DNA from: Sneathiella chungangensis
GTDB taxonomy: Bacteria > Pseudomonadota > Alphaproteobacteria > Sneathiellales > Sneathiellaceae
DNA: 64,000 nt
Reading direction: 5' to 3'
Assembly: GCF_009882935.1 (NCBI RefSeq)
Contig: NZ_WTVA01000001.1
Span: 572,238 to 636,237, forward strand
The notes beneath the pieces were generated by a model. It saw only the letters and a list, made by a program, of their open reading frames with translations. It did not search any database and was not told the origin of the DNA. The stretch's first letter is position 1; every line of letters starts with the position of its first letter. Shown here one piece after another: positions 46,292-51,227 of this stretch. The position numbers and the translations under genes are program-made.

Positions 46292-46978
46292 TTAGACCAC
46301 GCCGGCCAGCTTGGCAATCAGATTGACCATATATCCGATGGGCCCGGTCAGCAGCCAGCTGATCGGATCGATTTCCGCGCCGAGCTGGCGGCTGATCATC
46401 GGGACAAGGAATATGACGCCGATCAGGATCAGGAAACCATAGCGTTCCAGCCGCGCGAGCGGAATAGCGAGGCGGTCGGGCAGAATACCGACGGCGACCC
46501 GTCCGCCATCAAGCGGCGGCAGCGGCAGGAGGTTAAAAACGCCCAGCACCACATTGAGAATAATACCGTTTTTAAAATTGTCCGCGAACCAGTGCAGCGT
46601 CGATCCGGGCAGAAAGGCGAGCAGGTGAAACCCGAGGGCGAAGAGAAAGGCGAGCAGGAAATTCATGCCCGGCCCGGCCAGCGCCACCCAGACCATGTCA
46701 CGGCGCGGATTACCGAGGCGGGCGAAATTGACCGGCACCGGCTTTGCATATCCGAACAGGAACGGCGCCTTCACGAGAAGCAGGAAGCCCGGGATAAGGA
46801 TGGTCCCCATGGGATCGATATGCTTGAACGGATTGAAACTCACGCGCCCCTGCCGGAGCGCGGTATCATCACCGAGTTTCCAGGCGACATAGCCATGGGC
46901 GGCCTCATGCAGGGTGATCGCCGCAAGCGCGGGGACGATCCAGACAGAAATCTGGTAGAGAATATTTGCAAAGTCCAT
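46292..46978 (-). CDS. Site-2-type (M50) membrane metalloprotease
   Basis: A 228-residue integral membrane protein. The zinc site is HEAAHGYVAWKLGD (HExxH) and the second motif NLLPLPPLDGGRV supplies the third ligand. It is the short form without PDZ domains and resembles the YwhC/SREBP-cleaving subgroup. Its start shares one base with the nagZ stop. The substrate is unknown. Confidence 0.9.
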   Translation of the reverse strand: MDFANILYQISVWIVPALAAITLHEAAHGYVAWKLGDDTALRQGRVSFNPFKHIDPMGTILIPGFLLLVKAPFLFGYAKPVPVNFARLGNPRRDMVWVALAGPGMNFLLAFLFALGFHLLAFLPGSTLHWFADNFKNGIILNVVLGVFNLLPLPPLDGGRVAVGILPDRLAIPLARLERYGFLILIGVIFLVPMISRQLGAEIDPISWLLTGPIGYMVNLIAKLAGVV

Positions 46979-48018
46979 CAGGCGGTTACCCCGGCAAGCA
47001 GTTCATCGAGCCGAGCCCGGTCGGCCGTCACGTCGATCGTCGCGGGCGCCTGATCGAAGACGCGGTTGCCAAGTTCGATCCGCGCGCGCGCCTTTTCGGT
47101 GAGCGGCGGGCAGGCAGCGGCCACGTCCTTCATTTCCTCGAGCACACCCGAGCAGTGCAGCACAATATCGACACCCGCCGCGAGCGCCGCCCCGGCCCGC
47201 TCCGCAAGGCTGCCCGACAGCGCCTTCATATTGAGATCGTCCGTGAGCAGCAGCCCGTCGAAGCCGATCCCTTCGCGGATGATTGTGGTGATCACCGTCT
47301 CTGACAGGGTTGCCGGATGATCCGGGTCAATCTCGTCAAACAGGATATGGCTCGTCATCCCCCAGGGCAGCAGCGAGAGCGCCGTGAAGGGCGCGAAATC
47401 CGTCTGTTCAAGATCAGGTCGCGCGGCCGTCACATGAGGGAGCTCGTGATGGCTGTCGACCGTGGCGCGGCCATGACCCGGCATATGCTTGATCACCGGA
47501 ATGATCCCGGCCGTCAGCATCTCCTCGGCGACCACCGCGCCGAGACGCGCGACGACCTGCGGATCCGCCGCGAAGGCGCGATCGCCGATGGCCTCGACCG
47601 TCTCCGGCAACCGGAGGTCCAGGCAGGGCGTGCAGTTAACGGTGATCCCCGCCGCCTGCAGGTCCGCCGCAATCAGCCGCGTGGTAAGGCGCAATGCCTC
47701 AATCGCGCGGTCGGGATCGCTTTCATACATCCCGCCAAAAAATCCGAAGGGTTTCGCCTCGAACCAGTGCGGCGCGCGCAGGCGCTGCACCCGGCCGCCC
47801 TCCTGATCGATGAGCACGGGCGCGTCGGGCCGACCGACCGCCGCGCGCAAGGCTTTCACCAGTTTCCTCAGCTGTTTCGGATCCTCGACATTGCGGGCGA
47901 AGAGGATAAATCCGAAGGGCTGTTCCGCCTTGAAAAATTTCTTTTCCGCGCGCGAAAGCGTCAAACCTTCGCAGCCGAAGATCACGGACCGGCAGTCAGA
48001 TAATTCAGCCGCTGACAA
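46978..48018 (-). CDS. nagZ: Beta-N-acetylhexosaminidase NagZ
   Basis: A cytoplasmic family 3 glycosidase of peptidoglycan recycling, 346 residues. KHMPGHGRATVDSHHELP is the mobile loop with the catalytic His/Asp dyad. The nucleophile Asp is in LLTDDLNMKAL. LIDQEGGRVQRL is another signature. It overlaps the SPOR gene by 14 bases. Confidence 0.95.
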   Translation of the reverse strand: MSAAELSDCRSVIFGCEGLTLSRAEKKFFKAEQPFGFILFARNVEDPKQLRKLVKALRAAVGRPDAPVLIDQEGGRVQRLRAPHWFEAKPFGFFGGMYESDPDRAIEALRLTTRLIAADLQAAGITVNCTPCLDLRLPETVEAIGDRAFAADPQVVARLGAVVAEEMLTAGIIPVIKHMPGHGRATVDSHHELPHVTAARPDLEQTDFAPFTALSLLPWGMTSHILFDEIDPDHPATLSETVITTIIREGIGFDGLLLTDDLNMKALSGSLAERAGAALAAGVDIVLHCSGVLEEMKDVAAACPPLTEKARARIELGNRVFDQAPATIDVTADRARLDELLAGVTA

Positions 48019-48889
48019 CGAGACAATCCTGTTTTTGCGCTTTCAGGTCATTGCACAGCTGCTTCGCGCTATCGCGGTCGCCATAGCTGCCAAGCTGCAG
48101 GCGAAAATAGGTTCCCTTATCCTTCACGACCACATCCTCGACCCGGTAGGTGAGACCGGACAGCAGGGATTTGAACTTGGAGGACAAAGTTGAATACTGC
48201 TTTTCCGCCGCATCCTGCGAGCGGAAGGAGCCGACCTGAACGCGGAAGACCGGCCCGCCGGACGGCGCCGGCGCCTCGACCTTCTTGGGGACCGGCGCGG
48301 CGGCAACCTCGACCTTCTTTTCTTCAACCGTCTCTTCGATCTTTTCCTCGGCCTTCTCTACGGTCTTCTCCACGGTCTTTTCCTCGGCGGCCGGTTTTTC
48401 GTCCGCCACCGGCGCCGTCTCCGTCGCCGCTTCGCTCTTGTCCTCGGCGACCGGTTCGTCCTTCGTCGCCTTCTCAACCAGGGCGTCGAGCTTGCTTTCG
48501 TCAGCCGCCTTCTCAGCGTCGCTCATCGCGCTCTCCGCGGTTTTTTCCTCCGGCGTCGCATCTTCCGGCGGCGGCATCAGTTTCTCCACCTTCTCCGGCG
48601 TCTCGCCCGATTTCAGCACGCTGAACACCTGCTTGTCCTGATTTGGAATATCCATGCCGCCGGGCTCTACCGGCTCTTCCTTGACCGGGGAGGTATCGGC
48701 GCTGATGATCGGCGGCGCGAGCTGCACGCCCTTTTTCACGCCCTGGTCATAGGCGTACCAGATACCGATGCCGAAACCGGCAATGATGATGATGGCCAGT
48801 GTGCCGCCGATCCATTTCCGGCGGTTGCTGCGGGGCTCGTCTTCGCTCTCGTAATAATCAATTTCGAGGTAATCGTCATCGCCAGTCAC
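48005..48889 (-). CDS. SPOR-domain membrane protein
   Basis: A 294-residue protein with an acidic N-terminus, one membrane segment (about 27-48), a long Glu/Ala/Lys-rich periplasmic linker and a C-terminal SPOR domain (FRVQVGSFRSQDAAEKQYS, LQLGSYGDRDSAKQL). SPOR domains bind denuded glycan at division sites. The start is a GTG directly after the TAA of the ArgS-like gene, so translation is probably coupled. Confidence 0.9.
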   Translation of the reverse strand: MTGDDDYLEIDYYESEDEPRSNRRKWIGGTLAIIIIAGFGIGIWYAYDQGVKKGVQLAPPIISADTSPVKEEPVEPGGMDIPNQDKQVFSVLKSGETPEKVEKLMPPPEDATPEEKTAESAMSDAEKAADESKLDALVEKATKDEPVAEDKSEAATETAPVADEKPAAEEKTVEKTVEKAEEKIEETVEEKKVEVAAAPVPKKVEAPAPSGGPVFRVQVGSFRSQDAAEKQYSTLSSKFKSLLSGLTYRVEDVVVKDKGTYFRLQLGSYGDRDSAKQLCNDLKAQKQDCLVVSG

Positions 48890-49915
48890 TTAACCATACT
48901 CCTTTACTCTTTCGACGCCGAGAACAGTCGTCCCGCCATCCAGTATTTTATCCAGGGCGCCCAACAGGGCAAAGCGCGCCGGCCCTTCCGCCGTTTCCGT
49001 CAGATAGGCCGACGAAACGGGATGCACCCCTTCAAAGAGCCGGAAAAATAGCAAGGAAAGCGTCTCGAGGAAAGAGGCGAGATAAAAACTGTCTCCTTTG
49101 CGCAGGCAAGCCGCCACCGCCGGCGGCCATCCGCAGAGCGCCCGCGCCAATTCCATCTCGACCGGCAGTTTCAGGACCGACATGTCCACCCCGTTATTCG
49201 CTCCGGCTTTTGCCTGATTTCCCCCCACCCCGAGCCGTTGCAACATCATTCGCGCATAGGGAATGGCGAATACGGGGTTACCGTAGCTCCTGTCTATGGC
49301 CAAAATAGGGCTGAACGCATCGATAAAGCCGGGCGGGTTGGCCAAGAGGGCGAAGCGCGTCTTCTCCTCGGTGCATTTGCCGATGGCCGCCGCGAGCGGA
49401 AATCCGGCCGCCTCGCGCGGTGCGGAGGATATCGGCTCTACCCTGCCGCCCGTGAGCGCCGCCAGCCGTTCCAGTGCCTCGAGATTGGCCTGATCGCGGT
49501 AGCTGTAGAGGTCGATGACCGCCGCCGGGGCGGGAATTTCAGCACAATCCACCGCTAAATCCTCGAGCCCGTAACGGACGCCCTCCATAAGGATCAGCGA
49601 GACCTGGCGGCCCCAGAAATCCGCCGAATACCGGATATTGATATAGCCGTTCTGCTCGAGCCGGACTTCTTTGATCCCGGGGAGCGTCTCAAACCCCGAA
49701 ACGAGGTTTTTTGTCGCCCGGTCAAAATCAATATTTTCCATTGATTTCAATAAAATGGCGGCGTTTGTTGAAAGATCACCCAAATGCCGCGCCTTCGGCG
49801 GACGCAGGCGGACATCCCGGCGCACCGCCGCCTTCGCCCCGGGCGAGAGACCCTCAAGCGCCTCCAGCGCTGAAAACAGCGCGTTCCGGGCCTCGGTTAG
49901 ATAGCTGATGGACAT
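48890..49915 (-). CDS. ArgS-related protein lacking the catalytic core
   Basis: A 341-residue protein that aligns with the two ends of arginyl-tRNA synthetase. Residues about 1-112 match the N-terminal additional domain (HLGDLSTNAAILL, GIKEVRLEQNGYINIRYSAD). Residues about 200-341 match the end of the catalytic region (GNPVFAIPYARM) and the DALR anticodon-binding domain (ELARALCGWPPAVAACLRKG). The Rossmann core with HIGH and KMSKS is absent and replaced by about 75 unrelated-looking residues; full ArgS has about 580. It stands where argS usually stands in alphaproteobacteria. It cannot aminoacylate. A complete argS must exist elsewhere. Confidence 0.8.
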   Translation of the reverse strand: MSISYLTEARNALFSALEALEGLSPGAKAAVRRDVRLRPPKARHLGDLSTNAAILLKSMENIDFDRATKNLVSGFETLPGIKEVRLEQNGYINIRYSADFWGRQVSLILMEGVRYGLEDLAVDCAEIPAPAAVIDLYSYRDQANLEALERLAALTGGRVEPISSAPREAAGFPLAAAIGKCTEEKTRFALLANPPGFIDAFSPILAIDRSYGNPVFAIPYARMMLQRLGVGGNQAKAGANNGVDMSVLKLPVEMELARALCGWPPAVAACLRKGDSFYLASFLETLSLLFFRLFEGVHPVSSAYLTETAEGPARFALLGALDKILDGGTTVLGVERVKEYG

Positions 49916-49965
49916 GGGATGGTTTACATTTCCGGACGGTCAATTGACAAACATGCTTAGGATTA

Positions 49966-49983
49966 ATACATCATTTGATGTAT
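49966..49983. promoter_or_regulatory. Perfect palindrome in the erpA/ArgS-like divergent promoter region
   Basis: ATACATCA (49966-49973), TT, TGATGTAT (49976-49983). It is a perfect 8-bp inverted repeat about 50 bases from both starts. It has the form of a dimeric regulator site; I cannot name the regulator. Confidence 0.5.
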
Positions 49984-50032: not shown

Positions 50033-50383
50033 ATGTCTGTCATGGATAAAATGGAACCACCGGTGAAGCTGTCGGAATCGGCGGCCGACCGGATCAACGC
50101 GATTGTCGAGGAGATGAATTCCGACAAGAAGATGCTGCGCGTCGCGGTCAATGGCGGCGGCTGTTCCGGCTTTCAGTACAGCTTCGATCTGGAGGATACG
50201 CAAAATCCCGACGATGTGGTCGTGACCAACAAGGGCGCGACATTGTTGGTGGACCAGCTCTCGCTGATGTATCTCGCGGGGTCGGAAATCGATTTCGTCG
50301 ATGACATGATCGGCGCCTCCTTCCAGATCAAGAACCCGAACGCCACGGCCTCCTGCTCCTGCGGGTCCTCATTTGCCATTTGA
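50033..50383 (+). CDS. erpA: A-type iron-sulfur cluster carrier ErpA
   Basis: A HesB/IscA-type carrier of 116 residues that delivers Fe-S clusters to apoproteins. The three ligands are Cys44 (GGGCSGFQY), Cys108 and Cys110 (CSCGSSFAI). Insertion of clusters would concern MoaA and IlvD, both in this window. A terminator follows. Confidence 0.93.
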   Translation: MSVMDKMEPPVKLSESAADRINAIVEEMNSDKKMLRVAVNGGGCSGFQYSFDLEDTQNPDDVVVTNKGATLLVDQLSLMYLAGSEIDFVDDMIGASFQIKNPNATASCSCGSSFAI

Positions 50384-50453: not shown

Positions 50454-51227
50454 ATGAAGATAGCCAGCTGGAACATCAATTCGGTGAAGGCGCGCCTGCC
50501 GCGGCTTGTCGATTATCTGAAAGACTACGCCCCCGATGTGCTCTGCCTTCAGGAACTGAAGGTCATTGATGAAAACTTCCCCCGCCTGGAGGTGGAGGAG
50601 CTCGGCTATAATGTCGAGACCCATGGCCAGAAAACCTATAACGGCGTGGCGATCCTCTCCAAATCCCCGATCGAGGATGTGATGCGCGGCCTGCCCGGTG
50701 ACGATACCGACGAGCAGGCCCGCTATATCGAGGCGACGGTGAACAATGTCCGCATCGCCTCTATCTATCTGCCGAACGGCAACCCGACCGACACGGAAAA
50801 ATTCCCCTACAAGCTCGCCTGGATGGACCGGCTGATCACCCGCGCGAAATATCTTCTCACGCTGGAGGAGCCGACGGTGCTCGCGGGCGATTACAACGTG
50901 ATCCCTCAGGATGAGGATTGCTACGATCCCAAGGCCTGGGAAGGCGACGCCCTCACCCGCCCCGAGAGCCGCCACCGCTTCCGCCAGCTCCTCAATCTCG
51001 GCTATGCGGACGCCTATCGCGCCTTCACGAGCGAGGTGAATTATACCTATTGGGATTACCAGCGGGGGGCTTGGGCCAAGGATCACGGCATCCGCATCGA
51101 TCATCTCCTCCTCTCCCCGCAGGCCACGGACCGGATGGAACAAGTCGGTATCGACAAGGGCCCGCGCGGTCAGGAACGCCCCTCCGACCATACGCCGATC
51201 TGGGTGGAACTCTCGGATCTGGGGTAA
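50454..51227 (+). CDS. xth: Exodeoxyribonuclease III
   Basis: An AP endonuclease and 3'-5' exonuclease of base excision repair, 257 residues. Active-site motifs are IASWNINSVKARL, LCLQELK (metal Glu), GDYNVIPQDEDCYDP, and RPSDHTPIWVEL with the catalytic His. It starts 20 bases after the erpA terminator. Confidence 0.96.
   Translation: MKIASWNINSVKARLPRLVDYLKDYAPDVLCLQELKVIDENFPRLEVEELGYNVETHGQKTYNGVAILSKSPIEDVMRGLPGDDTDEQARYIEATVNNVRIASIYLPNGNPTDTEKFPYKLAWMDRLITRAKYLLTLEEPTVLAGDYNVIPQDEDCYDPKAWEGDALTRPESRHRFRQLLNLGYADAYRAFTSEVNYTYWDYQRGAWAKDHGIRIDHLLLSPQATDRMEQVGIDKGPRGQERPSDHTPIWVELSDLG

Follow-up and report, generated by a model that had tools for sequence, protein, structure and literature searches.

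Catalytically inactive relatives of aminoacyl-tRNA synthetases have been described, and gene duplication is the presumed source of many. According to PMC7237682, vertebrate DALRD3, which occurs beside a full ArgRS, carries a DALR domain like that of ArgRS but no synthetase catalytic motif that can be recognised; the same study recognises no domain in the protein's N-terminal part and reports homologues in vertebrates only. In a complex with METTL2, it recognises tRNA(Arg) for m3C formation (PMC7237682). SLIMP, a SerRS-like mitochondrial protein of insects, has kept tRNA binding and lost charging; it differs from the present case in deriving from mitochondrial SerRS in insects (PMC9437257). That review treats other synthetase relatives, and the term 'ArgRS' is absent from its main text. 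A further protein, NrtL (NCBIfam NF045898), is annotated as an ArgS-related anticodon-binding protein, has 327 positions, and from its name and length is presumably also core-less. Our literature search on Sneathiella and arginyl-tRNA synthetase returned no paper, and searches on ArgRS and synthetase paralogues, Sneathiella genomes and argS transfer (mostly antibiotic-resistance noise) yielded no title on a core-less ArgS.

Here we describe a 341-residue protein of Sneathiella chungangensis that retains both end domains of ArgS and is without most of the catalytic core (hereafter core-less ArgS). Like DALRD3, it has a DALR domain without a synthetase catalytic motif in an organism that also encodes a full ArgRS; unlike DALRD3, it keeps the ArgS N-terminal domain and the ancestral argS locus. 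DALRD3 is the closest known working model. The comparison with DALRD3 is by description, and locus and profile scores point to descent of the core-less gene from alphaproteobacterial argS.

Domain make-up and predicted fold

The gene lies in a window of 64,000 nucleotides (the whole stretch of DNA analysed) with the following features, residue numbers being those of core-less ArgS:

46292..46978, minus strand: M50-type membrane protease gene, conserved neighbour
46978..48018, minus strand: nagZ-like gene, conserved neighbour
48005..48889, minus strand: SPOR-domain gene, GTG start immediately after the core-less ArgS stop
48890..49915, minus strand: core-less ArgS gene, 341 codons plus stop (open reading frame, Pfam, structure model, order-wide retention)
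48893..49279, minus strand: DALR anticodon-binding domain, residues 213-341 (Pfam DALR_1 at 237-338; alignment)
49280..49396, minus strand: post-KMSKS segment, residues 174-212, with near-invariant C181, F197, S202 and Y211, none of them in canonical ArgS
49397..49570, minus strand: Rossmann core remnant, residues 116-173, a strand-helix-strand without HIGH followed by the deletion junction (model and alignment)
49571..49915, minus strand: N-terminal additional domain, residues 1-115 (Pfam Arg_tRNA_synt_N at 24-95; model; alignment)
49637..49645, minus strand: Y91-I92-N93, in the place of E. coli F82-x-N84 (positions matched by motif)
50033..50383, plus strand: erpA-like gene, divergent neighbour
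50454..51227, plus strand: xthA-like gene, conserved neighbour

We take the neighbours to be nagZ, M50, erpA and xthA; the name SPOR for 48005..48889 comes from an earlier reading of the sequence and is likewise presumptive. For the core-less gene itself, the initial annotation was right in coordinates, strand, length and intact frame. It had also described an ArgS relative that kept its two end domains and had lost the Rossmann core with its motifs, and Pfam profiles bear out the first part: Arg_tRNA_synt_N (PF03485) matches residues 24-95 (E 1.4e-5) and DALR_1 (PF05746) residues 237-338 (E 6.3e-6), both above cut-off, while the catalytic domain tRNA-synt_1d (PF00750) gave no match up to E 1.

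Canonical alphaproteobacterial ArgS resembles core-less ArgS in locus, N-terminal domain, DALR domain and profile similarity, and differs in having a full catalytic core with HIGH and KMSKS. In an alignment with 20 such enzymes, the canonical H, G and H columns of HIGH hold none of those residues in any of 20 core-less members, and the KMSKS stretch is without counterpart; the missing part runs from about the second Rossmann strand to just past KMSKS. The protein has 341 residues against 575-632 in the canonical enzymes, a deficit of about 250. A catalytic ArgS is marked by a class I catalytic domain bearing HIGH and KMSKS-type signatures, which core-less ArgS lacks; its N-terminal additional and DALR domains are present by Pfam and predicted fold, and we would expect it to carry out no charging.

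An AlphaFold2 model built from 19 genus sequences was confident (mean pLDDT 89.9, pTM 0.88), and its top Foldseek match was E. coli ArgRS (E 3.1e-6). With VIA-align 2, 316 of the 341 residues aligned to E. coli ArgRS (5b63) with Z 21.2 and rmsd 3.6, the aligned part of the E. coli chain spanning residues 1-577; the predicted fold is therefore that of ArgRS over most of the protein, and not a different one. The model also qualifies the described loss of the Rossmann core: HIGH, KMSKS and the PF00750 match are gone, but a strand-helix-strand at about residues 124-163 persists as a surviving piece of the first half of the core.

Distribution, locus and origin

Close homologues with the same deletion, whose absence together with dN/dS near 1 the initial annotation had named as counting against its reading, are encoded in 22 of 25 genomes of the order Sneathiellales, comprising Sneathiella and one sister-genus genome. 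The three genomes without one are only 56-66% complete, and all 18 good genomes (completeness of 90% or more, contamination of 5% or less) carry it. Within the genus, identity to the window protein ranges from 62% down to 29%, and the sister-genus protein shares 25%; since one of the 22 carriers belongs to the sister genus, the core was probably lost no later than the split between the two genera. In one genome (G001) the gene is split over two contigs, and in another (G008) it has an apparent frameshift (L051 5791-6795); because the full argS of G008 (G008:C12:832409-833487) is also broken in frame, both breaks are probably assembly errors. G008 and G001 were excluded from alignments, dN/dS and residue counts, and the sister-genus sequence from the second alignment (A2) and dN/dS.

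Beyond this genome set, a scan of genome contigs with the single window protein gave no match, and an alignment-based scan recovered 14 loci, labelled Sneathiella (seven), Sneathiellales (one) or less resolved or other (six, including one Rhodobacteraceae MAG); at least two of these (L087, L091) are on contigs whose lengths match none of those in the genome set. Among the matches listed for 386 class genomes and 397 phylum genomes, none outside the order was a full-length core-less match; half matches among those listed were to three frames that are short or cut, in G242 (386 aa), G051 (449 aa, at a contig end) and G411 (341 aa). The order-wide search with the core-less profile also gave weak matches to full E. 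coli-type ArgS (E 4e-6 to 4e-4), and a plasmid search gave weak N-domain matches alone, to four Azospirillum records.

The gene order is constant wherever contigs reach far enough, the sister genus included: xthA, erpA and then, divergently, core-less ArgS, SPOR, nagZ and M50. This place had been called the canonical position of argS, and so it proved in class genomes with canonical-type ArgS, where full argS has nagZ and/or SPOR beside it at 19 of 20 loci; erpA lies within the fetched stretch in 15 of the 20, in one case on the other side. The reported coupling to SPOR is also borne out, the TAA stop of core-less ArgS abutting the SPOR GTG. A Shine-Dalgarno-like AAAGGAG for SPOR sits inside the last codons of the core-less gene (window 48887-48905), so the conserved C-terminal KE of core-less ArgS may in part reflect the SPOR ribosome site.

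The genome search that the initial annotation had proposed found exactly one full catalytic ArgS domain, on a contig other than that of the core-less gene, in a full-length argS of E. coli type. PF00750 was matched in 22 of 24 related genomes (in two pieces in G008) and was absent from G001 (91% complete) and G016 (56% complete). With the core-less family profile, the 20 canonical alphaproteobacterial ArgS reach 101-148 bits, against 11.7-31.2 bits for full ArgS frames from Sneathiellales. The full ArgS of the genome scores 370 bits against E. coli ArgRS, 721-1151 bits against full ArgS of order relatives (761 in the sister genus), and 60-90 bits against canonical alphaproteobacterial ArgS. 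In a tree, the core-less family forms one clade (99/99) and the Sneathiellales full ArgS another (100/100); both sit on long branches, and the tree does not settle where either attaches. By profile score and position, descent of the core-less gene from canonical alphaproteobacterial argS is well supported, and the simplest history seems to be that an E. coli-type ArgS replaced the ancestral enzyme and that the old gene lost its core in place.

NrtL was considered as a family for these proteins and rejected. Of 20 core-less proteins, 19 match NF045898 at E up to 0.01, but five of them score 47.6-64.5 bits (the window protein 60.7) against a cut-off of 340, which was reached in none of 398 phylum genomes. 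The full ArgS of the S. chungangensis genome reaches 63.5 bits and three canonical ArgS 148-157; because these three match NrtL better than core-less ArgS does, the matches are taken to reflect common ArgS ancestry. NrtL may have undergone a similar loss independently.

The core-less gene is under purifying selection

In seven close pairs, dN/dS of the core-less gene was 0.23-0.36, with codon-bootstrap upper limits of 0.31-0.49 (Nei-Gojobori with Jukes-Cantor correction); values near 1, which the initial annotation had named as a sign of decay, were not observed. Uncorrected pN/pS was higher than in these neighbours: the six closest pairs gave 0.34-0.43, where SPOR and nagZ each gave 0.13-0.18. 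In the six nearest pairs involving the window protein it was 0.46-0.54. By segment (pooled over ten pairs of five relatives), pN/pS was lowest in residues 174-212 (0.26) and 0.35-0.43 in the other three. The family has 37 columns in which one residue is present in at least 19 of 20 members. Some of these residues are common to ArgS (D47, N93, P214, F216, E253, R314), and others are new to the core-less family (C181, F197, S202, Y211, Y304). L288, L289, F291 and S301 are further new residues that are near-invariant in the family. C181 (window 49373-49375), shortly past the deletion junction, is present in 19 of 20 members, while 19 of 20 canonical ArgS have valine there.

For comparison, 20 class genomes were chosen for lack of a core-less profile match, and not by type of full ArgS. 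nagZ was found in 19 of them; 13 of these loci were fetched, 12 of which are not cut by a contig end. In each of the 12, SPOR is directly preceded by one frame on the same strand, 390-457 codons long (771 in a single case), and the three such frames checked are HD-domain, dGTPase-like. No frame of the 13 loci matched the core-less profile even at E 10; with the canonical ArgS profile there were just two weak matches, to frames of about 900 codons. As no argS remnant was detected before SPOR in the 12 loci, SPOR in these lineages needs none. In a control genome whose locus is not among the 13 (G054), a full ArgS lies about 1.5 kb before nagZ. A dGTPase-type gene is also present in the S. chungangensis genome, on another contig (G000:C11:75305-76555, L179).

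These data bear on two accounts in which the protein itself would matter little. The gene might be on its way out, its frame open by recency alone, and it is true that its uncorrected pN/pS exceeds that of SPOR and nagZ, that many canonical ArgS residues are gone, and that the G008 copy has an apparent frameshift. Yet that frameshift is likely an assembly error, dN/dS and its bootstrap limits are low in all seven pairs, every good genome of the order retains the gene at identities down to 29% in the genus and 25% in the sister genus, and several of the 37 near-invariant columns hold residues other than those of ArgS; we regard decay as the least credible of the accounts considered. Nearly as improbable is that the gene persists only to space the operon, or to serve SPOR as a leader or in translational coupling. 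The abutting stop and start codons and the Shine-Dalgarno-like motif would suit such a role, but all four segments show selection on amino acids (pN/pS 0.26-0.43), an ArgRS fold is confidently predicted, and all 12 informative control loci have SPOR directly after one other frame without an argS remnant. The combined suggestion of the initial annotation, of a relic in decay that is retained so that SPOR can be translated, is likewise disfavoured by dN/dS, order-wide retention, the new near-invariant residues and the 12 remnant-less loci, and pure decay and operon-spacer readings were set aside on pN/pS, dN/dS and the control loci.

tRNA-binding residues and candidate roles

In E. coli ArgRS, F36, Q40, A78 and N84 hold A20 of tRNA(Arg), N84 with a hydrogen bond, and F82 stacks on it (PMC8975779). 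With positions matched by motif, N93 occupies the N84 position in all 20 core-less members and Y91 the F82 position in 17, while the F36 position (residue 45) is aromatic in 16 and L in the window protein. Near this putative pocket, D47 is present in 20 of 20 members, and G46 and N51 in 19 each; the A78 position holds A in just five of the 20. The four tRNA(Arg) genes found (UCU, CCG, ACG and CCU) all have GGA in the D-loop, which we read as containing A20.

Retention of canonical-conserved columns (kept in at least 15 of 20 members) is uneven, at 7 of 23 in the N domain, 6 of 34 in residues 116-173, 1 of 16 in residues 174-212 and 16 of 46 in the DALR domain. Because the DALR motifs VQYAHAR, EPHR, FH..W and LRF are largely lost in the family, anticodon reading by core-less ArgS is doubtful. 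This pattern of residues suggests that elbow or D-loop binding has been retained and anticodon reading altered or lost. The proteins are slightly acidic (pI 4.6-5.9 in 19 of 20 members), as are the matching parts of canonical ArgS.

The initial annotation had suggested that the protein may bind tRNA(Arg) without charging it. The predicted ArgRS fold and the largely kept D-loop pocket fit this suggestion, and charging in this genome is available from the separate E. coli-type ArgS; tRNA binding, with tRNA(Arg) as the putative target, is what we infer from the residues. We therefore propose, as a reading that we consider more probable than not, that the ancestral argS has been exapted in place as a non-catalytic tRNA binder or adaptor. 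The core-less gene would be the ancestral argS of alphaproteobacteria, which has not moved from its original site, and an E. coli-type ArgS encoded elsewhere would have taken over tRNA(Arg) charging before the sampled Sneathiellales diverged. The old gene would then have lost most of the Rossmann core, with the short strand-helix-strand left as the link between its N-terminal domain and what now follows, the post-KMSKS helices and then the DALR domain; this order and timing are likewise what we infer. Selection would maintain a stable non-catalytic protein of about 340 residues that may hold tRNA, chiefly at the elbow and D-loop, through its N-terminal pocket, and that may act as an adaptor or chaperone for another enzyme, either the acquired ArgS or, as with DALRD3, a tRNA-modifying one.

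Two other roles would also account for a selected, ArgRS-like protein. Exaptation for a tRNA-free job, for example as a protein-protein scaffold in cell envelope or iron-sulfur biology near SPOR and erpA, would accord with the change of most DALR signature residues and the appearance of new near-invariant ones, and the adjoining genes are presumably envelope and Fe-S genes. That neighbourhood, however, was inherited from the ancestral argS and so says nothing on function, and few residues are as well kept as N93, D47 and N51 of the pocket; we judge a tRNA-free role unlikely, if a serious alternative. A special case of the adaptor reading is that core-less ArgS is an additional tRNA-binding subunit that acts in trans on behalf of the acquired ArgS, in the manner of Arc1p. 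Both genes co-occur in the order, the sister genus included, but E. coli ArgS, to our knowledge, needs no such helper. Moreover, Arg_tRNA_synt_N was found once per genome in 19 of the 20 control genomes, in frames of 555-770 codons, and none had a second, in a search whose profile sees just 15 of the 22 core-less genes. We regard a trans-acting subunit as improbable.

Returning to exaptation as a tRNA-binding adaptor, its most specific form is that an essential synthetase, once displaced, became through deletion in place a core-less tRNA adaptor that reads the D-loop, and so a bacterial counterpart of DALRD3. One cell would then have two ArgS lineages, distantly related, that recognise tRNA(Arg), one for charging and one for another purpose, a proposal that we offer tentatively, as possible rather than probable. 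Notable here is that the displaced ancestral gene itself was seemingly kept at its own locus after replacement. The family offers a comparative case of exaptation with about 20 natural variants, the ancestral enzyme, and control lineages without a detected remnant; if tRNA is bound, what the tRNA-binding parts of a synthetase do without an active site becomes directly testable in bacteria.

Upstream of the core-less gene, a promoter scan around its start called nothing, including at two blocks between this gene and erpA (window 49943-49971). Read on the erpA strand as ATTGACAAA and AATACAT, these blocks are at least 90% conserved in the 19 genus sequences and resemble erpA promoter elements.
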